From: Prochlorococcus sp. AG-347-J19
GTDB lineage: Bacteria > Cyanobacteriota > Cyanobacteriia > PCC-6307 > Cyanobiaceae
Assembly: GCA_003279015.1 (NCBI GenBank)
Contig: QCBV01000007.1
Coordinates: 1 to 64,000, forward strand
Direction: 5' to 3'
DNA: 64,000 nt
Shown: positions 826 through 41,518 of the stretch, one piece after another
Layout of the letters: every line of letters begins with the position of its first letter
Position numbering within the stretch: position 1 is the first letter of the stretch
Notes under the pieces: model-generated
Told to the model about the DNA's origin: nothing
Database searches by the model: none
The model's input: only the letters and a program-made list of their open reading frames with translations
Program-made: the position numbers and the translations under genes

Positions 826-1827
826 ATGACTTCAAATATAAGGCTAAAAGGAAGGGGAGTTAATAGGATAATTACGAGTAAGATCATGCTATCGCCATTA
901 GCAGGAGTTACAGATAACATTTTTAGACGACTTGTACGTAAATGGGCTCCAAACTCTTTACTTTTTACAGAAATGATAAATGCCACAAGTCTTAAAAAAG
1001 GATATGGCACACATAAAATCAATCAAATAGATTTAGAAGAAGGTCCAATTGGAGTACAAATATTTGATAATAGGCCATATGCTGTTTCTGAAGCTGCGAA
1101 ACAAGCTGAGGACTCTGGAGCTTTCTTAATTGATATAAATATGGGATGTCCAGTAAAAAAAATTGCAAAGAAAGGGGGAGGCAGTGCTTTAATTAAAGAT
1201 CGAAAACTTGCTATAGAATTAGTCAAAAATGTTGTAAAAGCTGTTAGGGTTCCAGTAACAGTAAAAACACGAATCGGATGGGATAGTAAAGAAGAGAATA
1301 TAGAGGATTTCTTATTTAAACTTCAAGATGCGGGAGCAACGATGATCACACTTCATGGAAGAACTAGAAAACAGGGTTTTTCAGGCAAGTCAGATTGGGA
1401 AATGATCGGGAGACTTAAAAAGTTGTTGGAAATTCCAGTAGTTGCTAATGGAGATATCAAAAATCCAGATGACGCTCTTAATTGTTTAAAAAAAACAAAT
1501 GCTGATGGTGTAATGATTGGACGAGGAATTTTAGGATCCCCATGGAAAATAGGAGAAATAGATTATGCCCTTAGAGAAAATCAAAATTTTAAAGAACCAA
1601 ACACAGAAGAAAAACTATATTTAATTATTGAGCATCTTGATGCATTAATAAAAGAAAAAGGAGATCACGGCTTGCTAATTGCAAGGAAACATATCTCATG
1701 GACATGCAAGGACTTTAAAGGAGCATCAAATTTGAGAAATAACTTGGTTAGAGCTGTTGATAAAAATGAAGTTAAAAATTTAATAATTAAAATGATTAAA
1801 ACTTTGAATCATGAAAAAAATAGATAA
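826..1827 (+). CDS. dus: tRNA-dihydrouridine synthase
   Basis: FMN-dependent enzyme that reduces uridine to dihydrouridine in the D-loop of tRNA (COG0042 / NifR3-type family). TIM-barrel signatures are visible: MLSPLAGVTD at 21-30, the catalytic-cysteine motif DINMGCPVKK at about 103-112 (Cys108), LHGRTRKQGFSG near 180, ANGDI near 207 and GVMIGRG near 230. Length (333 aa) is normal for the family. The first 20 residues are not conserved in the family, and Met21 (position 886) is an alternative start. It is followed after 24 bases by a DUF2470 gene on the same strand. Confidence 0.93.
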   Translation: MTSNIRLKGRGVNRIITSKIMLSPLAGVTDNIFRRLVRKWAPNSLLFTEMINATSLKKGYGTHKINQIDLEEGPIGVQIFDNRPYAVSEAAKQAEDSGAFLIDINMGCPVKKIAKKGGGSALIKDRKLAIELVKNVVKAVRVPVTVKTRIGWDSKEENIEDFLFKLQDAGATMITLHGRTRKQGFSGKSDWEMIGRLKKLLEIPVVANGDIKNPDDALNCLKKTNADGVMIGRGILGSPWKIGEIDYALRENQNFKEPNTEEKLYLIIEHLDALIKEKGDHGLLIARKHISWTCKDFKGASNLRNNLVRAVDKNEVKNLIIKMIKTLNHEKNR

Positions 1828-8916: not shown

Positions 8917-9687
8917 ATGAAAGAAATTGGAGAGATAAAGTCAAATATATATAAAATAGCTGCTGTTACAGATAGAGGGCAAAGATTAAATAAATTAATT
9001 TCTCCTATGTATGAAGAAAAAGCTAATGAAATGGATGAATTGATTGATGCTCTTAAAGACTTTAATTTTGAAATATCAGAAAAATTAATGTCTGGAGAGT
9101 GGGAATTGATTTTTTCTAATGTTGAATTATTTCGAAGTTCTCCTTTCTTCCTTGCTATTGAAAAGGCATTAAATGATGAATTTAAAAGTAATCTTTTTTT
9201 TAAATTACATCAATTGCAAGTAGGATCCTTTGGCATATCAACTATTGGGAGAATTGCTCAAAAGATTGATTTTGAAAAAAAAGAATTTATATCTACTTTT
9301 GATACTACAATATTTGGGCTTACAACGATTCCTATCCTAGGTTGGTTCAAACTATTGCCTACTTTTGGTGGAAGAGTAATAACCCTAGCAAGTGATTTAG
9401 TTTTAAGAAATAATTTACTTGATATGAACTTACAAAAGACAAAAGTCTCCAAAGTTGATGGACTTAATAAGATTCCATTATTTAGTGAATTACTTATGGA
9501 TAGATGGTATCCAGTTAAAGAGGTATGGAATAAGTTACCTTGGAATAAAGAATCTCCAAATTGCCAGGTTTCAATTTTATACTTAGACGATGAAATGAGA
9601 ATTATGCAGGATATGTATGGGTCTATTTTTATTTATATAAGGCCTTCAATTTCCTTGTTGAATTCAAATACAATCTCTAATGATTAA
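8917..9687 (+). CDS. PAP/fibrillin family protein, 256 aa
   Basis: Second PAP/fibrillin protein of the window. Hallmarks: an N-terminal helical part, LMSGEWELIFSNVELFRSSP at about 62-81, a central sheet with GSFGISTIGRIAQKIDF, and the C-terminal strand MRIMQDMYGSIFIYIRP. By family it should act on lipids or quinones at the thylakoid. No signal peptide. Ordinary gene with its own upstream gap; start ATG at 8917 is supported by the helix that begins there. Confidence 0.78.
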   Translation: MKEIGEIKSNIYKIAAVTDRGQRLNKLISPMYEEKANEMDELIDALKDFNFEISEKLMSGEWELIFSNVELFRSSPFFLAIEKALNDEFKSNLFFKLHQLQVGSFGISTIGRIAQKIDFEKKEFISTFDTTIFGLTTIPILGWFKLLPTFGGRVITLASDLVLRNNLLDMNLQKTKVSKVDGLNKIPLFSELLMDRWYPVKEVWNKLPWNKESPNCQVSILYLDDEMRIMQDMYGSIFIYIRPSISLLNSNTISND

Positions 9688-9815
9688 TTAAAACACTGAA
9701 TATTATTTTGTAATTTATAGAAGAAACCATTAAAAATTTATTTTAAAGATTAATTGATAAAAACATCTCACGTCTAAATACAAATAAGTTATGTTCATAA
9801 TAAAAATTTTTTATT

Positions 9816-10130
9816 ATGCTTAGAAAACAAGAAAAAAATTCTGTTGTTAGAGGAATATTCCTAATAGGAGGTTGGGGCTTAGGTCTAGACAGATTCTACG
9901 AAGGTGATAAAAAAGGTGGCTTTTTATCAATCATTGGTTGGAGTATCACATTTTTTAGCTTTATCTTTCTTAAATATTCAGGTTATGAATATGTTGAGGG
10001 TGTGAAAAATTATTCAAATTATTCCCCTAACCCTTTAATAATATTACCTTTATTGGCAGGAGCATATGGTGGCTTTCTAATAATTAAGAAGGCATTTAGA
10101 TTAGCAAAACAATTTGAGAATGCTGAATAA
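9816..10130 (+). CDS. TM2-like domain membrane protein
   Basis: 104 aa with a basic start followed by a TM2-type hairpin: GIFLIGGWGLGLDRFYEGDK contains the Gly-rich first helix and the Asp-Arg-Phe-Tyr turn, then GGFLSIIGWSITFFSF as the second helix. An extra helix follows near 70-90. TM2 proteins are small inner-membrane proteins of unknown function. Confidence 0.65.
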   Translation: MLRKQEKNSVVRGIFLIGGWGLGLDRFYEGDKKGGFLSIIGWSITFFSFIFLKYSGYEYVEGVKNYSNYSPNPLIILPLLAGAYGGFLIIKKAFRLAKQFENAE

Positions 10131-10147
10131 TACTACCAGCAGTTAAT

Positions 10148-10309
10148 TCAAGATAATAATCCAGATCCTTTCAAATAAAATTTAAATAAAAGAATCACTA
10201 AAAGGTTTACTATTGCTAAGGCTACTAAACCATTTCTGTTTTTTACATCTAATTTCTTGACTAAATTAGAAAGATAAACCACTGGATTTTCTGGCTCTTT
10301 ATTATCCAA
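10148..10309 (-). CDS. 53-aa one-helix membrane protein with a TTG start
   Basis: The frame from the TTG at 10307-10309 reads DNKEPENPVVYLSNLVKKLD, then one helix (GLVALAIVNLLVILLFKFYL) and ends GSGLLS. The amphipathic/charged front and clear membrane segment look real, but there is no in-frame ATG; upstream in frame lies a TGA, with a run of eight A on the coding strand in between, so TTG is the only usable start. Confidence 0.45.
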   Translation of the reverse strand: MDNKEPENPVVYLSNLVKKLDVKNRNGLVALAIVNLLVILLFKFYLKGSGLLS

Positions 10310-10405
10310 ATTTTTTTTAAATATTAATTTGACAAGAAAATATCACAGTTTCATTTGAAGAATCAAAATTGTAAAGATGAATATCCATAAAGAAATAAAT
10401 AATTT

Positions 10406-10780
10406 TTAACCCATAATTCCTGCATTTCTTAAAAACGCTTTACCCATATTGCCAATTACAAAAAATAGAGACAGATTTATTAAAAGGATTATTAATAATG
10501 CCAACATTTTATAGTTTGGATTAGTTGAAATTCCATCAAATCCATTATTAAGAAATCTTTTAAAAAGTGATTTGTCAATTTTTGGTTTTTGTAGCTCAGA
10601 ATCAAGTTTTACTTTTTCTTCTAAAGAATCTTGACTACTTGCTTTCTCTAGAAATTCTGTAAATGCTTTAACATTTTCTTCTTTTTTAATCCCCTCATTA
10701 AGATCCTTATTGTCTTCATTCAAATTGGGGGACGACTCGATTGAATTATTTTCTTCAGGATTAAGTTTTGAATCTTCCAA
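10406..10780 (-). CDS. Acidic protein with a C-terminal membrane helix
   Basis: Unrecognised. An acidic, Asn/Glu-rich disordered front (about 90 residues) is followed by a basic stretch (KIDKSLFKRFLNNGF) and one membrane helix (MLALLIILLINLSLFFVIG) near the C-terminus. The frame is open back to an ATG at 10834, but those first 18 codons read through a terminator hairpin and its T-run; a TATACT (-10 like) at about 10800 lies inside them. The TTG at 10778-10780 (product starting LEDSKLNPEENN) is therefore the better start. Confidence 0.5.
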   Translation of the reverse strand: MEDSKLNPEENNSIESSPNLNEDNKDLNEGIKKEENVKAFTEFLEKASSQDSLEEKVKLDSELQKPKIDKSLFKRFLNNGFDGISTNPNYKMLALLIILLINLSLFFVIGNMGKAFLRNAGIMG

Positions 10781-10813
10781 ATTAGTATTAAATGCTAGGA
10801 GTATATCACACCA

Positions 10814-10848
10814 TAAAAAAACCCACTCGATCAATTGAAGAGAGGGTT
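10814..10848 (-). terminator. Rho-independent terminator, minus strand
   Basis: On the minus strand AACCCTCTC and GAGTGGGTT form a stem with one mismatch and an 11-base loop, followed at once by seven T. No protein gene on the minus strand ends just upstream (10849-10958), so it probably ends a small RNA. Confidence 0.6.
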
Positions 10849-10885
10849 AGCTAAGGTTAAAGTTCTTAGATAAATAATAATTTAT
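10814..10885 (-). ncRNA. Candidate small RNA ending in the 10814-10848 terminator
   Basis: Inferred only from an orphan terminator with no gene in front of it. Upstream on the minus strand is an AT-rich stretch with possible -10 boxes (TTATTATTTATCT) near 10885 and a small palindrome TTAGCTAA before the terminator stem. The 5' end is a guess. Confidence 0.3.
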
Positions 10886-10958
10886 TTTAATTAAATTTGC
10901 GGTTGTAGCATAATGAAGTTTTAAATTAGATTATATTCAAGGTGATTTTTTCGTACAT

Positions 10959-11165
10959 ATGTTGGATGCAAATACTAAAAAAGCATGTAAAGATGATCCC
11001 TCAATAAGAGAAATTAAAATTAGAAATATAGAACATGCTATTGAACAAGCAGAATTGATGATAAAAGAATCAAAAATGAGCCAAGAAGAATTAATCTTTT
11101 TAAAAAGAAAAATATCGGACTCAAGACAAGATTTAGAGACACTTTATTTAATGAAAATTCAATGA
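10959..11165 (+). CDS. Hypothetical coiled-coil protein, 68 aa
   Basis: Unrecognised soluble protein, entirely helical and charged (REIKIRNIEHAIEQAELMIK, then SQEELIFLKRKISDSRQDLE), most likely a two-helix coiled-coil hairpin. No cysteine motif except a single Cys10. Confidence 0.5.
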   Translation: MLDANTKKACKDDPSIREIKIRNIEHAIEQAELMIKESKMSQEELIFLKRKISDSRQDLETLYLMKIQ

Positions 11166-11280
11166 ATATAAATTTGTTAATCTTTAAAAGGATTAACTTT
11201 ATACAAAGAAAATTAATTTGTATATTTGAAGACTTATAAAGTTTAAAGGGAATGTAATTATTTGTATAAAGGTTCCAGTT

Positions 11281-11382
11281 ATGTCTAAAAATAATCTATA
11301 TATACCTTTAAAGGTTGTTCCATACATCTTCATTTCAATTACTGCCATAGCAATAACAGCAGCTACATATGTAATTACTTAG
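11281..11382 (+). CDS. 33-aa one-helix membrane protein
   Basis: ATG at 11281: a short polar front (MSKNNLYIPLKVVPYIF), then a hydrophobic helix rich in Ile, Ala and Thr ending at VIT. Size and layout are like small photosystem subunits, but it does not match a subunit I recognise. Confidence 0.45.
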   Translation: MSKNNLYIPLKVVPYIFISITAIAITAATYVIT

Positions 11383-11446
11383 TTCTAGAAGCTATGTAGA
11401 GTTTTTAGATATTAAATAAATTAAAATATTTGTAATAACTAATTGT

Positions 11447-11689
11447 ATGAATAAATTCAAAATAGCAATTTTTACAATATTAATAATCATATTTTCCCTT
11501 ATTGGGATTAAAAAATTAATTTATATAAATCAATTTAAAGATTTAAAAATTAAAGAAGAATCATTTTTAAATGAATCTATGCGTGTTTTAAATGAATGCT
11601 TCGATCTAGAAAATAAAAATAAAAGAACTCTTAATAAATCAATTGAATTAATTGAGTATTGCTTAGAGGAATATGGATATAAAAACTGA
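11447..11689 (+). CDS. Hypothetical membrane-anchored protein, 80 aa
   Basis: Unrecognised. Residues 4-24 form a membrane helix or uncleaved signal (FKIAIFTILIIIFSLIGIKK); the rest is a charged helix pair with two cysteines (ECFDLENK and YCLEEYG). Confidence 0.5.
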   Translation: MNKFKIAIFTILIIIFSLIGIKKLIYINQFKDLKIKEESFLNESMRVLNECFDLENKNKRTLNKSIELIEYCLEEYGYKN

Positions 11690-11816
11690 TTTCAAAACTT
11701 GAATGATAAATTTCCTTAATACTCCACTAATATACAAATGAAAAATTCCCATCAATAATCTTGTTATGTTCCATAATTTTTTATTAATAATATTTTCCTA
11801 ATTTAATTTTTTTAAA

Positions 11817-12224
11817 ATGACTAAAGTTAAATGTTCTTATTTAGGAAATTTAAACTGTGAGGCTATTCATCTACAATCTGGAAGTCTGATTAGAACTGAT
11901 GCACCTTTAGATCACTGCGGTAAAGGTGAAAGTTTTTCCCCGACTGACTTATTAGCAACATCTCTAGGTACTTGCCTGCTAACCATTATGGCAATCAAAG
12001 CTAAATCGAAAGGATTTGATTTGAAAGGTATATATTTAAATATTGAAAAAGTAATGACACAAAATAGCGAGAGGAAGATAAAAGAACTAATAATAGATAT
12101 TTTTATACCAGAGAGCACTTCTAATGAAACTATGGATTTTTTGAAAAAAGCTTCCAAAGAATGTCCAGTTACAAGAAATTTATCTCAAGAAATAGATATT
12201 AAAATTAATTGGCATAATCAATAA
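11817..12224 (+). CDS. OsmC/Ohr family peroxide-reducing protein
   Basis: 135 aa. The two redox cysteines of the family are present: Cys53 in SLGTCLLTIMAIKAK and Cys116 in KECPVTRNL. The block GKGESFSPTDLLATSLGTC is the usual start of the long central helix. OsmC/Ohr proteins are dimeric, thiol-dependent reducers of organic or fatty-acid hydroperoxides in the cytoplasm. A role against photo-oxidative stress is inferred. Stands alone. Confidence 0.85.
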   Translation: MTKVKCSYLGNLNCEAIHLQSGSLIRTDAPLDHCGKGESFSPTDLLATSLGTCLLTIMAIKAKSKGFDLKGIYLNIEKVMTQNSERKIKELIIDIFIPESTSNETMDFLKKASKECPVTRNLSQEIDIKINWHNQ

Positions 12225-12254
12225 ATCTCAACCATAAAAATTACATAAAAAATA

Positions 12255-12380
12255 ATGAAATACTTTATTGGAATAGTCATTCTTTTATTTGGAATATATA
12301 TAATTACAGACTTGGCATTAAAGACTAGGTATACAAGAAAAAGACTTTCAAAAGGAAAAAATAAATCCTATAGATTTTAA
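12255..12380 (+). CDS. 41-aa one-helix membrane protein
   Basis: ATG at 12255: membrane helix at 2-20 (KYFIGIVILLFGIYIITDL) and a strongly basic tail (RYTRKRLSKGKNKSYRF) that should face the cytoplasm. It follows the OsmC gene by 30 bases on the same strand. Confidence 0.45.
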   Translation: MKYFIGIVILLFGIYIITDLALKTRYTRKRLSKGKNKSYRF

Positions 12381-12403
12381 TATTGCAGATTAAGGAAATA
12401 GTT

Positions 12404-12688
12404 TTATTTTTTCACTATTTTTTGGTCAATCAAACTAATCAAAGGGATCATGAAATTCACATTTATTCCAACAGTGCACCATGTATAAATAATAAGAAAA
12501 AATATTTTTATATATAAATTAGGGGGTAAGGTGAAAAATATTTTGAAAAACCCTCCAATGAATAATCCCAATATTCCAATTTGAAAAAGACCTTTGATTA
12601 TCCATTTAAGTCCATATTTTTTAATGTTTAGACAAAACCAGAAAAAAACAAAACTAGATAACAATAAATATAAAAAATTTATGATCAT
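12404..12688 (-). CDS. Hypothetical membrane protein, 94 aa
   Basis: Unrecognised. Three hydrophobic helices (about 4-20, 30-50, 58-85) with a basic cytoplasmic loop (NIKKYGLKWIIKG) and a basic C-terminus. Convergent with the small gene ending at 12380. Confidence 0.5.
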   Translation of the reverse strand: MIINFLYLLLSSFVFFWFCLNIKKYGLKWIIKGLFQIGILGLFIGGFFKIFFTLPPNLYIKIFFLIIYTWCTVGINVNFMIPLISLIDQKIVKK

Positions 12689-12826
12689 CTTTCCAGAGAA
12701 AATCTAATAAATTTGCCATTATCAAGGCATGATGACAATTATTACTTTTTTATCTGCTAAATTTTTTTTAAAATGGAAATGTTATACAAAAAACAATAAA
12801 AACAAATTATTTTTTTACTTTCTATC

Positions 12827-13210
12827 TCAAAACATTTTCGATTTTAGTAAATTAACCCTTTTTTGATTCACTCCCAAATCACTTTCTCCAACTCTTGATT
12901 CTGATCTTATTAATAAGATGTTTGATTCTGGTAGAAAGGATACTTCTAAGTCGTCTACATACTTCATCCATTTACTGGTTGCCTCAGCATGAAGATAATC
13001 GCCATCAATTTCTACAATCTCAGTTCTTGGAGTGTTTTCGATAAATGTTTTAATCTCTTCAAAAGGTTTCTCAATATTGTTTACCTCCCATTCTTCTCGT
13101 ACACAATGAGCAATCTCTACACAAGGTTTTAGTTCTATATGTGAGGCAAATGATGAAGAAGGGAATAAAAAGCTTGAACAAATTAAAATTGCTAAAAAAA
13201 GTATTTGCAT
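12827..13210 (-). CDS. DUF1499 family secreted protein
   Basis: 127 aa with a signal peptide (residues 1-22, ending FASH). The rest fits DUF1499: the start CVEIAHCVREEW, the strand pair ENTPRTEIVEIDGDYLHAEA, and the C-terminal LLIRSESRVGESDLGVNQKR block. Expected in the periplasm or thylakoid lumen. Function of the family is unknown; two cysteines near the front could form a disulfide. Confidence 0.78.
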   Translation of the reverse strand: MQILFLAILICSSFLFPSSSFASHIELKPCVEIAHCVREEWEVNNIEKPFEEIKTFIENTPRTEIVEIDGDYLHAEATSKWMKYVDDLEVSFLPESNILLIRSESRVGESDLGVNQKRVNLLKSKMF

Positions 13211-13340
13211 TTACAGAAGAATTTAACGACTCATAATCTAACGAATTAAATTACTAATTTGTAATGTCGACCTAATTATTTCAGATGAAAGCATATATGT
13301 TTTATATTTATAAATTTATATGTATTTCTAATAATTCCCA

Positions 13341-13373
13341 AAAAAAAAGATCCCTCGAAGAGAGATCTTTTTA
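13341..13373 (-). terminator. Rho-independent terminator of the Yfr2-like RNA
   Basis: AAAAAGATC-CTC pairs with GAG-GATCTTTTT across a GAA loop with one mismatch, followed on the minus strand by nine T. It is nearly symmetrical and could work in both directions. Confidence 0.65.
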
Positions 13374-13440
13374 AAATTGATTTATATCAAGTGTTTCCTT
13401 GTTTCCACTGTAATAAATCAATTCCTCCTACACACAATAC
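13341..13440 (-). ncRNA. Yfr2-family small RNA candidate
   Basis: Minus-strand RNA of about 95 nt. An 11-bp perfect stem (AATTGATTTAT with ATAAATCAATT, 13375-13385 and 13413-13423) closes a loop holding GGAAACAAGGAAACA (13392-13406), the tandem GGAAACA that marks the cyanobacterial Yfr2 family. A terminator (13341-13373) ends it. The 5' leader (GTGTGTAGGAGG) is nearly complementary to the Yfr1 core motif. A TAGTAT -10 box lies just upstream. The Yfr2 assignment rests on motif and fold; the exact 5' end is inferred. Confidence 0.65.
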
Positions 13441-13512
13441 TAATATCACACCTAAATTCAAAATATGTAATGCTTGATAGACCTCTATCTTAACTGTCAC
13501 ATGGTAAAAAAT

Positions 13513-13590
13513 AAAAAAAGTACTCAAACATCGAGGTCGAGTACTTTTAAAGTTATCAGAAAAAAGTGTGTGAGGAGTTTCTGATGTACT
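13513..13590 (-). ncRNA. Small RNA candidate carrying the Yfr1 core motif
   Basis: The minus strand reads ACTCCTCACACAC at 13578-13566, identical over 13 bases to the core of the Yfr1 RNA at 41488-41500. Here the motif sits in the loop of an 8-bp hairpin (ATCAGAAA / TTTCTGAT, 13555-13562 and 13578-13585). A terminator stem (AAAAGTACTC / GAGTACTTTT, 13516-13525 and 13539-13548) with a run of T follows. A TAAATT box at about 13597-13602 could be the -10 element. Length about 75 nt. Confidence 0.55.
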
Positions 13591-13700
13591 TAATTTACTC
13601 CGAAGGCAATTTAAAAGGCTACGGTATATATTACTAATTATTTAAATCTTTCAGAAAAATTGAGCGTTGATAAAAAAAATAATCAAAACATAAAAAATTC

Positions 13701-13835
13701 ATGAAAAGCTTTTACAAAAAAATCATTTTTATTATTTCGGCAATTGCTCTTTTTTCAGTAATAGTTGGTGTTGTCAAATATTCGCTTACTTATATTGAAA
13801 ATAATCCCGAAAAATACTTTCCCACACAAAAGTAA
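13701..13835 (+). CDS. 44-aa membrane-anchored protein
   Basis: ATG at 13701: a basic start, one membrane helix (IIFIISAIALFSVIVGVV) and a short polar tail (YIENNPEKYFPTQK). No family recognised. Confidence 0.45.
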   Translation: MKSFYKKIIFIISAIALFSVIVGVVKYSLTYIENNPEKYFPTQK

Positions 13836-13909
13836 GACAAAAATTAAGTATAAATTCACTTCAAAAAATCTATAAAGTGTCTTAAATATGTTCTACATAG
13901 ACAGCTTGA

Positions 13910-14056
13910 ATGATGAAAATCAAAAATATTTCAGTTCTTAATCAGAATAATATTCATTTAAGTCAATTCAAAAATAAGCATAAATATCAAATACTTGAGA
14001 ATTACTGGAAGAAAAGAAAGAAAGAATGTGAAAAAAATCTTTCAAAATTTTGCTAA
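13910..14056 (+). CDS. Small basic protein, 48 aa
   Basis: Starts at ATG 13910 (a second ATG follows at 13913). The C-terminal part is a very basic helix (LENYWKKRKKECEKNLSKFC) with two cysteines. No signal peptide, no domain recognised. It ends 9 bases before the next gene. Confidence 0.35.
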   Translation: MMKIKNISVLNQNNIHLSQFKNKHKYQILENYWKKRKKECEKNLSKFC

Positions 14057-14065
14057 CCGATAATT

Positions 14066-14314
14066 ATGAATTTTATTTTTTCTTTTTTATTAGCATCTGT
14101 GATGTGGGTACAAGTTCCACAGTGGGAAGCTGACTGGTCAAAATGTGCTGTAGATGTTCCCGATTCATCATGTCACTGGTACGTAGCTGCTCCCGATAAT
14201 ACGTTTGGGGAAGGATTTAATTGGGAAAACGCTCCTTGGTTTGATGCTAATGGATTACAGGATGTAGCTAAAATTGAGAAAGAATCTGTAGTAGAAAAAC
14301 TTCAAAAAAACTAA
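14066..14314 (+). CDS. Hypothetical secreted protein, 82 aa
   Basis: Unrecognised. A short hydrophobic start (MNFIFSFLLASVMWVQVPQW) looks like a signal peptide; the mature part is rich in Trp and Asp with two cysteines (SKCAVDVPDSSCHWYVAAP) that may form a disulfide, and ends in a charged helix. Ordered, well-conserved looking sequence rather than low complexity. Confidence 0.55.
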   Translation: MNFIFSFLLASVMWVQVPQWEADWSKCAVDVPDSSCHWYVAAPDNTFGEGFNWENAPWFDANGLQDVAKIEKESVVEKLQKN

Positions 14315-14397
14315 AGTTTCTATTTCATCAATTAACTTTTAAAAGTATTTAAATCTAGTTGCTTAGTGGTTAACTTTTGATTAATTAAAAAATTTTT

Positions 14398-14544
14398 ATG
14401 CGTTTCAAAGTAAGTCTCAAAAAAAATGGAAAGGAATTTGATGAAGTTGTTATAGCTAATAATAAAAAAGAGGCTATGGAAGTAGCTTTAAAAAATAATC
14501 CTCAAGCTCAAGCATTAAACTCTGATTGGACATTTAAGATTTAA
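14398..14544 (+). CDS. 48-aa small soluble protein
   Basis: ATG at 14398: a strand (MRFKVSLKKNGKEFDEVVIA) followed by a helix (KKEAMEVALKNNPQAQALN) and a final strand, a compact beta-alpha-beta. Similar 'modify-and-count' small proteins are common in picocyanobacteria but I cannot name the family. Its last 11 bases overlap the end of znuB on the other strand. Confidence 0.5.
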   Translation: MRFKVSLKKNGKEFDEVVIANNKKEAMEVALKNNPQAQALNSDWTFKI

Positions 14545-15331
14545 TTATCTGCGAAAGTTTAGGAATCAAAAGAGATGCAACACAAATAACACTAATTGCA
14601 GGTCCAGGCGACAAATTAAAGACTATAGAGAGAATAAACCCTAGAAGTGAGATGCATAATCCAAAAAATGAAGACCTCATCATTGCAATTCTTAAACTAT
14701 GAGCCTTATTTAGCCCTAATAGAGTTGGCGTAGAAAGAAGAGCAATAACAAGAATTACTCCCACTGCTGACATTGAACTAACAATTACTAATGCCGTCGT
14801 AAAACTCAAAGCAAGATTTAATAAAGAAACGTTTATACCACTAGCGGATGCACCTTCTGGATCCAATCCCACATAAACAACCTTTTCATATCCAAAAGTC
14901 ATTAAAAGTATAAATACTAAAAAAGCAATTATTGTTCTAAGTAAATCTCCAAAATTTGCTGTCAATAAATCGCCAAATAATACTGCCTCCAAATCAATCC
15001 TTATTCCGAGTAAAGGGATTATAAGGACCCCAAACCCAAGCATTCCAGCGAGAATAGTATTCATAACTGCTTCATAATTTTCACTTTTTCTATTAGTTAA
15101 ACTTTCCGCAATTACTGCTCCCAGAAGACCACTTATAACACCACCAATTGAGGGGTGAATTCCAAGCGCTAATGCGAGAGCAAGTCCAGGCAAAACACAA
15201 TGAGAGATTAAATTAACTTGTAATAATCTCTTATGAGTGATTAATACAGTTCCCATAGCTGGGCATAAAATCCCGGAGAATATAGTTATTATTAATGGAA
15301 CCAACCACCAGTTGTTATTAATAAAAGACAT
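14534..15331 (-). CDS. znuB: Zinc/metal ABC transporter permease (ZnuB-like)
   Basis: 265-aa inner-membrane permease of the ABC-3 family with seven to eight hydrophobic helices, including HCVLPGLALALALGIHPSIG early and the late Gly/Ser-rich segment (SSMSAVGVILVIALLSTPTL). It would carry Zn(II) delivered by ZnuA, driven by ZnuC. Its gene is separated from znuC by an oppositely oriented Zur-type gene, so it cannot share a simple operon with znuC. Which metal is used is inferred from the neighbouring His-rich ZnuA and Zur boxes. Confidence 0.85.
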   Translation of the reverse strand: MSFINNNWWLVPLIITIFSGILCPAMGTVLITHKRLLQVNLISHCVLPGLALALALGIHPSIGGVISGLLGAVIAESLTNRKSENYEAVMNTILAGMLGFGVLIIPLLGIRIDLEAVLFGDLLTANFGDLLRTIIAFLVFILLMTFGYEKVVYVGLDPEGASASGINVSLLNLALSFTTALVIVSSMSAVGVILVIALLSTPTLLGLNKAHSLRIAMMRSSFFGLCISLLGFILSIVFNLSPGPAISVICVASLLIPKLSQIIKS

Positions 15332-15387
15332 TATTCGAAAGATTCGGTATGATCAAAAATGCGAGGCAAAAAAAGATTTTGGAAACA

Positions 15388-15783
15388 ATGGTAACTAAGT
15401 CTGACATTACCAAAAGACAAGAACAACTTCTTGAAGAACTTAATAAATGCGAGGATGAATTGAGCGGTCAAGAATTGCATAGGCAGTTGATCACAAAAGG
15501 CAAATCTATGGGGTTGACCACTGTTTATAGAAATCTGCAAATCTTGATAAAGCATGGATTAATTCGTTCTAGACATCTCCCAACAGGAGAGGTTCTTTAC
15601 ACTCCCGTAGACAGAGATATTCATCATTTGACCTGCGTTCAATGCGGAGAGACGTCGAAAATGGAAGGTTGTCCTGTTAAAGATATTCATGTCCCTAAAA
15701 AAAATCCAAGAAAGTTTCAACTTTTGTTTCATACACTCGAATATTTCGGCCTTTGCCAAAACTGTTATCAAGCTCAAAATTAA
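15388..15783 (+). CDS. zur: Fur-family regulator, Zur type
   Basis: Fur fold: helix-turn-helix with GLTTVYRNLQILIKHGLIR as the recognition region, then LTCVQCGE and LCQNCYQ as the two Cys-x-x-Cys pairs of a structural zinc site, and His residues around DIHHLTC for regulation. The frame is open from 15349 (13 extra codons), but a TATGAT at 15347-15352 looks like the -10 box of this gene, so the ATG at 15388 (MVTKSDITKRQEQ) is preferred, giving 131 aa. It likely represses the znu genes when zinc is plentiful. Confidence 0.85.
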   Translation: MVTKSDITKRQEQLLEELNKCEDELSGQELHRQLITKGKSMGLTTVYRNLQILIKHGLIRSRHLPTGEVLYTPVDRDIHHLTCVQCGETSKMEGCPVKDIHVPKKNPRKFQLLFHTLEYFGLCQNCYQAQN

Positions 15784-15796
15784 TAAGGAACATTTT

Positions 15797-16567
15797 CTAA
15801 TCACAGAAATTATTTTCCTTTATAGAGCTTATGTTTATCGCATCTAATTTATCTTTTATTTGATCAGGACTACCAACTGCTAAAACACTTTTATCAAGAA
15901 CGATTACTTGATCGTAGTTATTTAGAGACTCACCCCAATCATGACTACTTACTAGCAAAGAAAGTCCCGCATCTGCGAGTTGACGAACAATTTTCAGGAA
16001 GTCCTCTTTTGCGGGGGGATCCAATGCCGCACAAGGTTCATCCAGAAGAAATATTTTTGCAGGGGACATAAGAGTTTTTGCTAATAGAGCTCTTTGTTGC
16101 TGTCCTCCTGAAAGAGAATCGAGTCTTCTATTAGCTAAATTAGCAATTCCTACTCTTTGCATTGTCGCTTCTAATTCACAACATTTATTAATCCAAGAAT
16201 TAGGATATTCTAGAAGAGCCTTGATTTGAAAGGGGTTATTACTTCTTGATTTTGAATACTTTATTTGACCAAGAGATACCAATTTTTCAACTGTAATGGG
16301 AAACTTCCAATTCATAGAACTTCTTTGAGGCATAAGTGCCACTAGAGCTCTAGATCTATATAAATTTTCACCGTCTATTTTTATTTCGCCTTTGTCTGGA
16401 GTATTTTGTCCTTGCAATATCCTCAAAAGAGTGGATTTACCGGCACCATTTGGACCTACTAGCGCTGTTAGAGTTCCAGGTTTAATCTCAACCGATACCT
16501 TATTTAAAGCTGGCTTACTTTTTTCTGTGTATGCAAATGTTAAATTTTCAGCGACTAAAGTAGCCAT
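15797..16567 (-). CDS. znuC: Zinc ABC transporter ATP-binding protein (ZnuC-like)
   Basis: 256 aa. All ABC motifs are visible: Walker A GPNGAGKSTLL near 38-48, Q-loop near LMPQRSS, signature LSGGQQQRALLAKTL, Walker B IFLLDEPCAALD, and the switch His in SSHDWG. It powers metal uptake with ZnuA and ZnuB. Divergent from znuA; the 137-base gap between them holds two Zur-box-like sites. Confidence 0.9.
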   Translation of the reverse strand: MATLVAENLTFAYTEKSKPALNKVSVEIKPGTLTALVGPNGAGKSTLLRILQGQNTPDKGEIKIDGENLYRSRALVALMPQRSSMNWKFPITVEKLVSLGQIKYSKSRSNNPFQIKALLEYPNSWINKCCELEATMQRVGIANLANRRLDSLSGGQQQRALLAKTLMSPAKIFLLDEPCAALDPPAKEDFLKIVRQLADAGLSLLVSSHDWGESLNNYDQVIVLDKSVLAVGSPDQIKDKLDAINISSIKENNFCD

Positions 16568-16618
16568 TAATTAATCTTCATGAAAAAGTCACTTTACAAG
16601 CTTACCAATAATACAAGC

Positions 16619-16633
16619 TGCGTATTATTTTCA
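16619..16633. promoter_or_regulatory. Second Zur-box-like site
   Basis: TGCGTATTATTTTCA matches 10 of the 12 fixed positions of the cyanobacterial 7-1-7 Zur consensus (TGAnAATnATTnTCA). It is closer to znuC and probably controls that side. Confidence 0.5.
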
Positions 16634-16665
16634 TAACATTTGATACCTTTTCTTGCCAAGTGAAA

Positions 16666-16680
16666 TGAAAATGATTATCA
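16666..16680. promoter_or_regulatory. Zur box upstream of znuA
   Basis: TGAAAATGATTATCA is a full match to the 7-1-7 palindrome TGAnAATnATTnTCA used by cyanobacterial Zur. It ends 24 bases before the znuA ATG, a position that would block the promoter. Confidence 0.75.
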
Positions 16681-16704
16681 TTTTTAAGTATTTAATAATT
16701 ATTT

Positions 16705-18246
16705 ATGTCAATTTTTAAAAGACTTTTATCAAATAAAACATGTTCAAGTAAGTCAATTATTAAAAATTCCGTAATCGCTGGAACGATTATATTTTCTGGT
16801 TTTGGGCAGGATGTAATGGCTAAAGGGAAGTCATACGTAGCAGTAGAACCACTAGTTTGTGATTTAGTTAAATCAATTGCGTTGCCATCTGACGAAGTTA
16901 CATGCTTAGTAGATAGAAAACAGGATGTTCATGACTTAAAGATCAATCCAAGACAAGCTCAATTACTAAATAGCGCAGACAAAGTATTCACTCTTGGCAA
17001 AGAAATGACTCCAAGTATGAGAAATTGGGAAAGTAAAAAAAATACTGTTGTTGTAGGTGTTAGTGCAATAGACGTAGATGATCATTCTGATCATGAAGGT
17101 CACGATGACCACTCAGACCATGACGGACATGACGATCATGCTGAACATTCAGCTAAGGTAGATGATCATTCTGATCATGGAGGTCATGATGATCATTCAG
17201 ACCATGGTGGACATGATGATCATGCTGAGGGTGCTTTCGAATGGGCAGGTAAATTCCAGCTTTCTAAGGGTTCATACAAATGGTCATTTGAAAAAGTCGA
17301 TGGCGAATATGCAGATCCTGCAATGAAGATGGTGATTCTCAAATCTAATGACATAGAAGGGTCTGAAGATTTAGCCAAAGAATTATTAGGATCTAAAGAC
17401 TCAATAAGCAGAAAAAATGATGGAACTTTGATAGCAAGTAATAAAGCTTTTGTTCTTAACTTCGATCAAAGAAAAGAAAGTACTGTTTTTAACGTGGATA
17501 TCAAAGAAGATGGTGAATATATATTTTTTACTGAACACATGCCTTTTGAGTTTGAAGCAACTCAACACTTTTTTAAAGACGTTTCAAATAGTGATGTAGA
17601 ACCAATAGCACAAGTTCCAGACGAAGGAGAGGGGCATCATCATCATGACCATGGAGGTCTAGATCCACATGTATGGCATGATCCACATAACATCATAAAA
17701 ATGGGAGATCTTATAAGCAAAAGTTTAAAGAAAGATATTTCAGTTTTTAATAGAGGTGACAGAAAACTAATTAATGAAAGATTCGAAAAAGCTGATTCTC
17801 TCTTAGAAGGCTTAGATAGTTGGATCGTCGAACAAGTAAGCTCTATTCCTGAGGAAAACAGAGTAATTGTCTCTAAACACAAAGCAATGGAATACTACGG
17901 GGATGCATTTGGTTTTGAAACCATTAGTTTACTTGACTTTCTTGGAGACTCCTCAAGCTTAAGGCCAGACAACATAAGTTCTACTTTAAAAATGTTAGAT
18001 GAAGAGAAAGTTCAGGCAATATTTCCTGAACAAATTCCAGCATCTAAGTTATTAAGGAACTTAAGTAGACAAAGTTCAGTTCCTTTAGCTTCTAATCAAA
18101 TATTCGTTGATGGATTGATGATGGATGGTAATACGGTTTCAGTAGCCGTACACAACACTTGTACAATTGTTGATTCATTAGGTGGAAGCTGTGATAAAGA
18201 ATCTGGCTCCAATCTTGAGTCTGAATGGTACAAACTTTCAGATTAA
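16705..18246 (+). CDS. znuA: Zinc-binding ABC transporter substrate protein (ZnuA-like) with His-rich loop and an inserted domain
   Basis: 513 aa, far longer than the usual 300-330. Signal peptide 1-39. The ZnuA fold begins near 43, with a ligand-type His76 (DVHDLKINPRQ). Residues 124-174 are a His/Asp-rich loop of 9-residue repeats (DDHSDHxGH) in two copies of about 28. Residues about 178-293 are an extra domain not found in standard ZnuA, and similar to one in the CobW protein next door. A second His cluster (HHHHDH, 311-316) precedes the canonical GLDPHVWHDP (318-327), followed by the rest of the fold (VSKHKAMEYYG, FPEQIPASK). It collects Zn(II) outside the membrane; the gene follows a full Zur box. 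Confidence 0.9.
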   Translation: MSIFKRLLSNKTCSSKSIIKNSVIAGTIIFSGFGQDVMAKGKSYVAVEPLVCDLVKSIALPSDEVTCLVDRKQDVHDLKINPRQAQLLNSADKVFTLGKEMTPSMRNWESKKNTVVVGVSAIDVDDHSDHEGHDDHSDHDGHDDHAEHSAKVDDHSDHGGHDDHSDHGGHDDHAEGAFEWAGKFQLSKGSYKWSFEKVDGEYADPAMKMVILKSNDIEGSEDLAKELLGSKDSISRKNDGTLIASNKAFVLNFDQRKESTVFNVDIKEDGEYIFFTEHMPFEFEATQHFFKDVSNSDVEPIAQVPDEGEGHHHHDHGGLDPHVWHDPHNIIKMGDLISKSLKKDISVFNRGDRKLINERFEKADSLLEGLDSWIVEQVSSIPEENRVIVSKHKAMEYYGDAFGFETISLLDFLGDSSSLRPDNISSTLKMLDEEKVQAIFPEQIPASKLLRNLSRQSSVPLASNQIFVDGLMMDGNTVSVAVHNTCTIVDSLGGSCDKESGSNLESEWYKLSD

Positions 18247-18323
18247 ATTTTTCTAATAAAAACGGTTTTCATTTCTTATTATTACTATTATTAAACTATT
18301 GTTTATTTGGTAAAAATCATTAA

Positions 18324-19679
18324 ATGAGCATCAAAGATAAAGTTCCAGTTACTATTCTTACTGGATTTCTAGGTTCAGGGAAAACTACTTTACTTAATAG
18401 AATACTAAGTGAAGAGCACGGGAAAAGAATAGCCGTAATTGAGAATGAATACGGTGAAGTAGGGATAGATCAAGGGCTCGTAATAAATGCCGATGAAGAA
18501 GTGTTTGAGATGTCAAACGGGTGCATTTGTTGTACTGTTCGCGGTGATTTAATAAGAGTCCTTGGCAACCTTATGAAAAGAAGAGATAAGTTTGACTATG
18601 TTTTAGTAGAAACGACCGGATTAGCAGATCCTGGGCCAGTCGCACAGACATTTTTCATGGATGAAGAAATAAGTTCTGAATTTACTCTTGATGGAATTGT
18701 AACTTTAGTTGATGCTGCTCATATTGATCAGCAGCTAGGAAGAAGTGATGAAAGTTCAGAACAAGTTGCGTTTGCAGATGTTCTTGTCCTTAATAAAACT
18801 GATTTAGTCTCTGATGATGCACTAGATACTCTTGAATCGAGATTGAGAGATATGAACCGAATGACTCGAATCATTAGAGCCGAGAATGCCCAAGTACCAA
18901 TCGAAACAGTCCTAAATCTAAGTGCATTTGATCTCGATCAAATACTTAAACGCAGACCAACATTTCTTGAACCAGAATATCCTTTTGAATGGACAGGTGT
19001 TTACGACCTTGCTGCAGGTAAATATGAATTAATGCTAGAAGAAGGTCCCGATCCAGAAATGTCATTAGTAGCTTTCGCTAATCAAGGTGAGAGTGAAGAA
19101 GAACTTAAAGATGGTGCTGAATCCTGCGTAAGACTTTATGCAGAAAAAGCTAAAAGAATAGAACCTGGGAATATCATTCCATTTGGAGAACATATAAACC
19201 TTAAATTGGAGGATAAAGGAAATAAATCATTCATATTAAATATCGAAAAAGGATCAAAGATAGGTTTATATACACAGCACACTGCTGAAGAATTCAATAT
19301 GAAAATCATTAAAAGTGAAGACAATAATTCAAAAGAGATCCCATTTAATATTGAAAGATTCTGGCAAGCCGAGCACGAGCACGATGATGAAGTAACGTCC
19401 ATTGCAATTGAACGATTTGGAGATGTTGATCCAGAAAAACTTAATACTTGGTTGGGCAGACTTCTTTCTGAAAAAGGGGTGGATATATTTAGAACTAAAG
19501 GTTTCATTAGCTACTCAGGCAACCCACAGAGAATAGTTTTCCAAGGGGTACATATGTTATTTACAGCGCAACCTGATAAGGAATGGGGTAACGAACCTCG
19601 TAGAAACCAACTTGTTTTTATAGGTAGAAATTTGGACGAGAAAGAGATGAAAGAAGGTTTTGAAAAATGCCTGATATAG
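18324..19679 (+). CDS. CobW-family GTPase / zinc metallochaperone (COG0523)
   Basis: 451 aa. Walker A GFLGSGKTTLL at 14-24, metal-binding Cys67-x-Cys69-Cys70 (GCICCTVRGDL), NKTD at 157-160. The C-terminal CobW_C domain is near 385-435 (IFRTKGFISYSGNPQRIVFQ). Between them, residues about 222-330 hold an extra domain similar to that of ZnuA, and a metal-type segment HEHDD lies at 351-355. COG0523 proteins close to Zur and Znu genes hand zinc to target proteins when zinc is scarce. The gene stop overlaps the start of the next gene by 13 bases. Confidence 0.85.
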   Translation: MSIKDKVPVTILTGFLGSGKTTLLNRILSEEHGKRIAVIENEYGEVGIDQGLVINADEEVFEMSNGCICCTVRGDLIRVLGNLMKRRDKFDYVLVETTGLADPGPVAQTFFMDEEISSEFTLDGIVTLVDAAHIDQQLGRSDESSEQVAFADVLVLNKTDLVSDDALDTLESRLRDMNRMTRIIRAENAQVPIETVLNLSAFDLDQILKRRPTFLEPEYPFEWTGVYDLAAGKYELMLEEGPDPEMSLVAFANQGESEEELKDGAESCVRLYAEKAKRIEPGNIIPFGEHINLKLEDKGNKSFILNIEKGSKIGLYTQHTAEEFNMKIIKSEDNNSKEIPFNIERFWQAEHEHDDEVTSIAIERFGDVDPEKLNTWLGRLLSEKGVDIFRTKGFISYSGNPQRIVFQGVHMLFTAQPDKEWGNEPRRNQLVFIGRNLDEKEMKEGFEKCLI

Positions 19680-41458: not shown

Positions 41459-41518
41459 AAAAAAAGCCCGATTAATCGGGCGATTTAGTGTGTGAGGAGT
41501 ATGGGGTTTCCCCCATCA
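41459..41518 (-). ncRNA. yfr1: Yfr1 small RNA
   Basis: The minus strand shows the ordered pieces of Yfr1: a GAAA-capped hairpin (ATGGGG...CCCCAT, 41501-41516), the ultraconserved core ACTCCTCACACAC (41488-41500), and a perfect 16-base palindrome GCCCGATTAATCGGGC with T-run as terminator (41459-41481). Its place between trxA and guaB is the known Prochlorococcus position. Yfr1 base-pairs with ribosome-binding sites to repress outer-membrane proteins. The -10 box TATTAT lies at about 41525-41530. Confidence 0.9.

Follow-up and report, generated by a model that had tools for sequence, protein, structure and literature searches.

A minus-strand RNA element of Prochlorococcus sp. AG-347-J19 that carries the Yfr1 core is very probably a Yfr10-family member orthologous to MED4 Yfr18

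The window analysed here, a 64,000-nt stretch of Prochlorococcus sp. AG-347-J19 DNA, carries two short RNA elements in tandem on its minus strand (Table 1). The upstream element contains a core identical to that of Yfr1; the downstream element, about 75 nt away on the same strand, is the only match in the genome assembly to Cyano-1 (RF01701), which we take to be the Yfr2 family. MED4 has four such matches, and this assignment is supported by the adjacency of three of them to Yfr10-type RNAs; the fourth overlaps the Yfr15 interval, which PMC2518516 lists beside Yfr3. Between the terminator-like hairpin of the first element and the start of the second lies a conserved TGTGACARTT box.

Table 1. 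Features of the tandem RNA locus and of Yfr1 in the window.
Feature	Position	Strand	Basis
Conserved -10-like box TATACC	13623..13628	minus	variant in 81/82 syntenic loci
Yfr10-family sRNA, probable MED4 Yfr18 orthologue; mature RNA with inferred bounds	13512..13585	minus	Rfam, fold, collinear DNA
5' arm of core hairpin, AUCAGAAA; last A is the core's first A	13578..13585	minus	predicted fold; 8 pairs
Core ACUCCUCACACAC, identical to Yfr1 core	13566..13578	minus	exact match; 13-mer exact in 73/82 syntenic loci
3' arm of core hairpin, UUUCUGAU	13555..13562	minus	predicted fold
Terminator-like hairpin with U run	13513..13548	minus	predicted fold; 12 pairs
Conserved TGTGACAGTTAA box between both RNAs	13490..13501	minus	TGTGACARTT in 82/82 syntenic loci
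Yfr2-family RNA (Cyano-1), MED4 Yfr5 orthologue	13370..13437	minus	RF01701, 78.6 bits; collinear DNA
5' anti-motif GUGUGUAGGAG of Yfr2-family RNA; core complement with one bulge	13425..13435	minus	exact in 81/82 syntenic loci
Yfr1, core at 41488-41500	41463..41516	minus	Rfam RF01116, 58 bits; only match in genome assembly

The 13-mer ACTCCTCACACAC occurs exactly on the minus strand at 13566-13578 and, within Yfr1, at 41488-41500. The initial annotation had reported this identity and judged it unlikely to have arisen by chance, and both statements hold: the window contains three near matches to the 13-mer (at most two mismatches) against a shuffle mean of 0.26, and none of 100 window shuffles had three. 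In the genome assembly (1.59 Mb, 96% complete) the inner 10-mer CTCCTCACAC is found at these two sites only, with one occurrence of the same pattern read backwards as a control. The two copies of the core differ in locus and in setting. In Yfr1 the core is single-stranded between two stem-loops, and the RF01116 match in the genome assembly is confined to 41463-41516; the core at 13566-13578 is instead enclosed by the first stem of its own predicted structure.

This predicted structure consists of 8 bp closing a 15-nt loop, followed by a 12-bp stem and a U run, with a minimum free energy of -18.3 kcal/mol (z -4.6; 0 of 200 shuffles equally stable). Twelve of the 13 core bases are placed in the loop; the remaining one, the first A, is paired and ends the 5' arm. 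The element's own hairpin and the enclosure of its core in a closed loop, unlike that of Yfr1, had likewise been noted in the initial annotation. Opening the core is calculated to cost 0.87 kcal/mol, as against 0.00 for Yfr1, a comparison that ignores the number of pairs possible within a closed loop; as modelled, the core is accessible.

A T-run terminator had been proposed, and a 12-bp stem with a U run is indeed predicted, while a simple terminator scan of either strand of 13300-13720 found none. Likewise, the proposed -10-like box is present as TATACC, a variant of which occurs in 81 of the 82 syntenic loci (described below; TATACTGT in 70 of them), as judged with a TATAC-type pattern that was fixed only after the alignment had been viewed; a simple scan of the minus strand of 13300-13720 for sigma-70-type promoters gave no match. 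The bounds first given, 13513-13590, need trimming at one end: the mature RNA would run from about 13585 to 13512, and 13586-13590 would be leader.

Several lines of evidence identify the element. The Yfr10 covariance model (RF02362) matches 13504-13585 of the minus strand with 63.1 bits, against a curated Rfam cut-off of 43; the element carries the Yfr1 motif ACUCCUCACAC, this motif is predicted to lie in a loop atop a stem, and an RF01701 match follows on the same strand, in keeping with the position upstream of a Yfr2 homologue described for high-light strains (PMC6778093). MED4 has three RF02362 matches (346661-346738, 383217-383296 and 972241-972321) and four Yfr2-family copies; the first RF02362 match coincides exactly with the Yfr10 coordinates in PMC2518516, and the other two overlap the Yfr12 and Yfr18 intervals given there. 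By blastn, window positions 8992-19249 are collinear on both sides with the 11 kb around MED4 Yfr18-Yfr5, whereas the 11-kb surroundings of Yfr10 and of Yfr12 match the window at the RNAs alone. Since collinearity extends to the third MED4 locus only, the locus in the window corresponds to Yfr18-Yfr5. A search of window positions 13340-13660 against a phage collection gave no match at E 1e-5.

On the strength of these comparisons, we regard it as very likely that the minus-strand element is an already described sRNA, a Yfr10-family member and the orthologue of MED4 Yfr18; the original observation is correct, yet the RNA is already known, not new. The initial annotation had called it a second sRNA, perhaps a paralogue or competitor of Yfr1. 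Its closeness to the published Yfr10, Yfr12 and Yfr18 upholds the first part, while paralogy by descent is unsupported because the motif alone is common to the element and Yfr1. With Yfr18 of MED4, found in 2008 by Northern blot and 5'RACE (PMC2518516), the element shares a syntenic locus, an identical 13-base core, an equal predicted hairpin and an adjoining Yfr2-family RNA (Yfr5); it differs in local sequence, and the published 5' end lies farther upstream than the conserved box here implies. It resembles Yfr10 (RF02362; PMC6778093), an expressed short RNA that is up in darkness, in its hairpin-loop core, its terminator, its position upstream of Yfr2 and a score over the Rfam cut-off. MED4 Yfr10 itself occupies a different locus, in genomic island 1, and has a different terminator stem.

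For MED4 Yfr18, PMC2518516 gives the interval 972284..972388 (105 nt) and bands of 29 and 76 nt. On these coordinates the RNA would start 67 nt above the hairpin and stop at the first base of the terminator stem, which does not fit the promoter inferred from the conserved box. A 105-nt transcript starting at 13616, about 7 nt below the box, would instead reach the vicinity of the U run (13512), and its 76-nt piece would begin no more than 2 nt from the hairpin start, as in mature Yfr10; for the same placement in MED4, the published Yfr18 coordinates would have to be moved by about 36 nt.

RF02362 matches were found in 123 of 151 genomes of the genus (E <= 0.001), including 50 of 52 of good quality, and were absent from the other 28, two good-quality genomes among them. 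In a wider sample of the family, 8 of 121 genomes had a match, five of these from the genus of the window. We examined 150 RF02362 loci, the strongest among the matches listed; 82 of these, apparently one per genome and including those of the window and of MED4 Yfr18, have flanking proteins in common and are referred to as syntenic. The initial annotation had let its reading depend on conservation of the 13-mer in close relatives, and such conservation is found: all 13 bases are intact in 73 of the 82 syntenic loci, and the first 11 in 80. In a 410-nt alignment of 81 of these loci (L156, cut by a contig end, was left out), mean major-letter identity is 0.991 in the core, 0.991 and 0.998 in the arms, 0.904 in the terminator, 0.874 in the leader and 0.849 in the upstream stretch; it is 0.965 in the -10-like region (13635-13619) and 0.991 in both the TGTGACAGTTAA box and the Yfr2 anti-motif. 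As 18 of 398 13-column windows, the core's own included, match the conservation of the core, it is among the most conserved pieces of the locus, not alone.

Conservation of the fold was assessed in 77 of the 82 syntenic 83-mers, five duplicates having been removed. All cells of the closing stem (8 pairs) are paired, without any double change; six pairs are invariant and two vary on one side. The terminator hairpin has 97.5% of cells paired, with one double change in each of three pairs. Covarying stems around a fixed 13-mer, which the initial annotation had suggested looking for, are therefore not seen within the genus, where the closing stem is almost invariant, although the same stem covaries in sister genera (see below). 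Such near-invariance of the stem suggests that its arms may have an added role in the genus of the window, for example in processing or as a protein site.

What the initial annotation chiefly missed is the downstream Yfr2-family RNA, whose MED4 relative binds Yfr1 and Yfr10. Its anti-motif lies downstream of the core in 81 of the 82 syntenic loci, the 82nd being cut by a contig end. When window 16-mers (about 127,970, folding being restricted to those that contain one of seven 4-mers) were searched for partners of the core, the 5' end of the Yfr5 orthologue ranked third at -16.9 kcal/mol, after the core's own two opposite strands. Full-length duplexes with Yfr5 were not discriminating, mononucleotide-shuffled Yfr5 being as good in 165 of 300 cases for Yfr18 and 145 of 300 for Yfr1, so that the core-level comparison is what supports pairing. 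The tandem order need not imply co-transcription, and the conserved TGTGACAGTTAA box probably serves in upstream control of the Yfr2-family gene. It may be the GntR-family site CGRE1. In MED4, TGTGACAATTAA precedes Yfr2, Yfr4 and Yfr5.

Much of the corresponding network has been described in MED4. The Yfr1 motif is common to Yfr10, Yfr12 and Yfr18, with two changes in Yfr12; pairing of these RNAs with their neighbours Yfr2, Yfr4 and Yfr5 has been proposed, and a 270-nt precursor of Yfr10 and Yfr2 reported (PMC2518516). Yfr2 pulls down Yfr1 and Yfr10 and relieves repression by Yfr1 in E. coli, a host in which ppa is reported to be poorly translated; Yfr10 displays the motif in a hairpin loop, structure conservation among its homologues is very low, and its targets overlap those of Yfr1 but are distinct from them (PMC6778093). 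The ppa footprint is lost in UCCU mutants of Yfr1 and Yfr10, and the same study connects the network with the carbon and nitrogen metabolism of phototrophs that are abundant in the ocean (PMC6778093). Its pull-down baits were Yfr1, Yfr2 and Yfr10, with Yfr18 not among them (PMC6778093).

Taking identity and mechanism together, we assign a probability of roughly 70% to the reading that the element is a Yfr10-family sRNA, the Yfr18 orthologue, which acts in trans and is subject to titration by the Yfr2-family RNA encoded beside it. The Yfr18 orthologue would be transcribed from the minus strand and end at its own terminator hairpin, displaying the Yfr1-type core in the 15-nt loop; CUCCUCACACAC would pair with G+A-rich (AGGAG-like) sites in mRNAs; and the 5' end of the Yfr5 orthologue, the next gene on the same strand, would titrate both the Yfr18 orthologue and Yfr1. 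The basis found here is sequence, predicted fold, synteny, conservation, adjacency and complementarity. By analogy with the Yfr18 transcript, the Yfr10-Yfr2 binding and the Yfr10 targets of MED4, we infer transcription, mRNA targets and titration in this strain. An RNA acting mainly as a decoy, which soaks up Yfr5, frees Yfr1 and has few mRNA targets of its own, seems unlikely, yet in its favour a Yfr2-family RNA follows in tandem in 81 of 82 syntenic loci; moreover, binding of Yfr1 or Yfr10 protects Yfr2 from cutting by RNase E, and very little Yfr2 suffices to block binding of both to ppa (PMC6778093). Against it stands the pull-down with Yfr10 as bait: peaks of 253 mRNAs were enriched, and Yfr1 does not share two thirds of the Yfr10 targets (PMC6778093).

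The notion that the 13-mer arose by chance between genes, where no RNA gene exists, to which the blank promoter scan of the minus strand would lend some colour, is refuted by conservation in 82 syntenic loci and is further opposed by the Rfam match, the z of -4.6 and the known MED4 transcript; we give it practically no weight. Scarcely more credible is that the element belongs to a protein-coding transcript, as a small ORF or as the leader or tail of an mRNA. Short ORFs do overlap it (36 aa at 13474-13584 on the plus strand and 46 aa at 13387-13527 on the minus strand), but the distance from the core to the Yfr2 signature ranges from 161 to 202 in the syntenic loci, with lengths differing by single bases, so that no reading frame is kept, and a divergent ORF (13701-13835, plus strand) lies next to it upstream. 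The analysis confirms an sRNA that had been found from the letters alone, without annotation, and places it in the known Yfr1/Yfr10/Yfr2 network. With a single match each for Yfr1, Yfr10 and Yfr2 in the genome assembly, as against the larger MED4 set, this strain would offer a simpler system for testing the circuit.

Conservation is looser in the 68 non-syntenic copies. Among the 57 whose core was found by pattern, 40 have the exact 13-mer, and so do L059, L062 and L070, giving at least 43 of 68; of the 11 without a core by pattern, L030, L059, L062, L069 and L070 nonetheless contain the exact 10-mer. Cores reading CTCTTCACAC occur with a GTGAAGGA anti-motif in 9 of 9 non-syntenic copies, as against 12 of 33 copies with an intact 11-mer (Fisher p 0.0014, excluding two third-type copies of the 33 and nine of the 57 copies without a readable anti-motif). 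Compensation of the decayed core by the Yfr2 anti-motif was considered and rejected, because it brings no gain in pairing energy (-15.4 or -14.5 vs -17.7 kcal/mol) and common descent of the copies is probable. Altered cores beside a Yfr2-family RNA with the loop signature were also noted in the non-syntenic Yfr10-type copies L072, L125, L127, L143, L144 and L155. Two incomplete genomes (G031 and G124; 51 and 65%) have six RF02362 matches each; the genome of the window has one copy.

In sister genera, 90 places were sampled among the matches listed. Because the hairpin class is partly defined by the presence of a hairpin, sites for covariation analysis were chosen by terminator instead; 49 of 92 sites satisfied the terminator rule, and 37 were left after removal of identical 40-mers. 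The closing stem covaries in these 37 sites, with 16 double-change cells, where shuffling gave 5.3 on average (none of 500 shuffles reached 16), and a covariation score of 0.225 against 0.059 when shuffled (0 of 500) and at most 0.058 for slid partners, the shuffle leaving the relatedness of the sites in place. By contrast, finding three pairs that show double changes, or seven further pair types, was not unusual (195 and 66 of 500 shuffles, respectively), and 23 of the 37 sites have an open outermost pair. In the sister-genus loci L165 and L166, the arms AUCAGAAC/GUUCUGAU and AACAGAAC/GUUCUGUU surround the same 11-mer. A Yfr2 signature lies on the same strand at 90-250 nt in 18 of 56 hairpin-class loci, a class that depends on the hairpin; near Yfr1-type loci of the family sample none was found within 650 nt or up to the end of the fetched stretch (25 of 25). 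None of ten hairpin-type loci scanned reached the RF02362 cut-off. The hairpin-type loci may correspond to Yfr104 of MIT9313.

Whether presenting the Yfr1 core in a hairpin loop is itself a selected device across marine picocyanobacteria is doubtful, though the idea merits mention as a tentative one, with the covarying closing stem around a fixed core in sister genera in its favour: if true, the loop would limit the length of pairing and thereby make targets and Yfr2 affinity differ from those of Yfr1. Hairpin-displayed Yfr1 cores with a common terminator type were observed in L171, L189, L206, L213, L221, L239 and others. In L213, a glutamine-II riboswitch (RF01704, 70.8 bits; 999-1060, minus strand) lies about 300 nt or less from the hairpin-type Yfr1 core.
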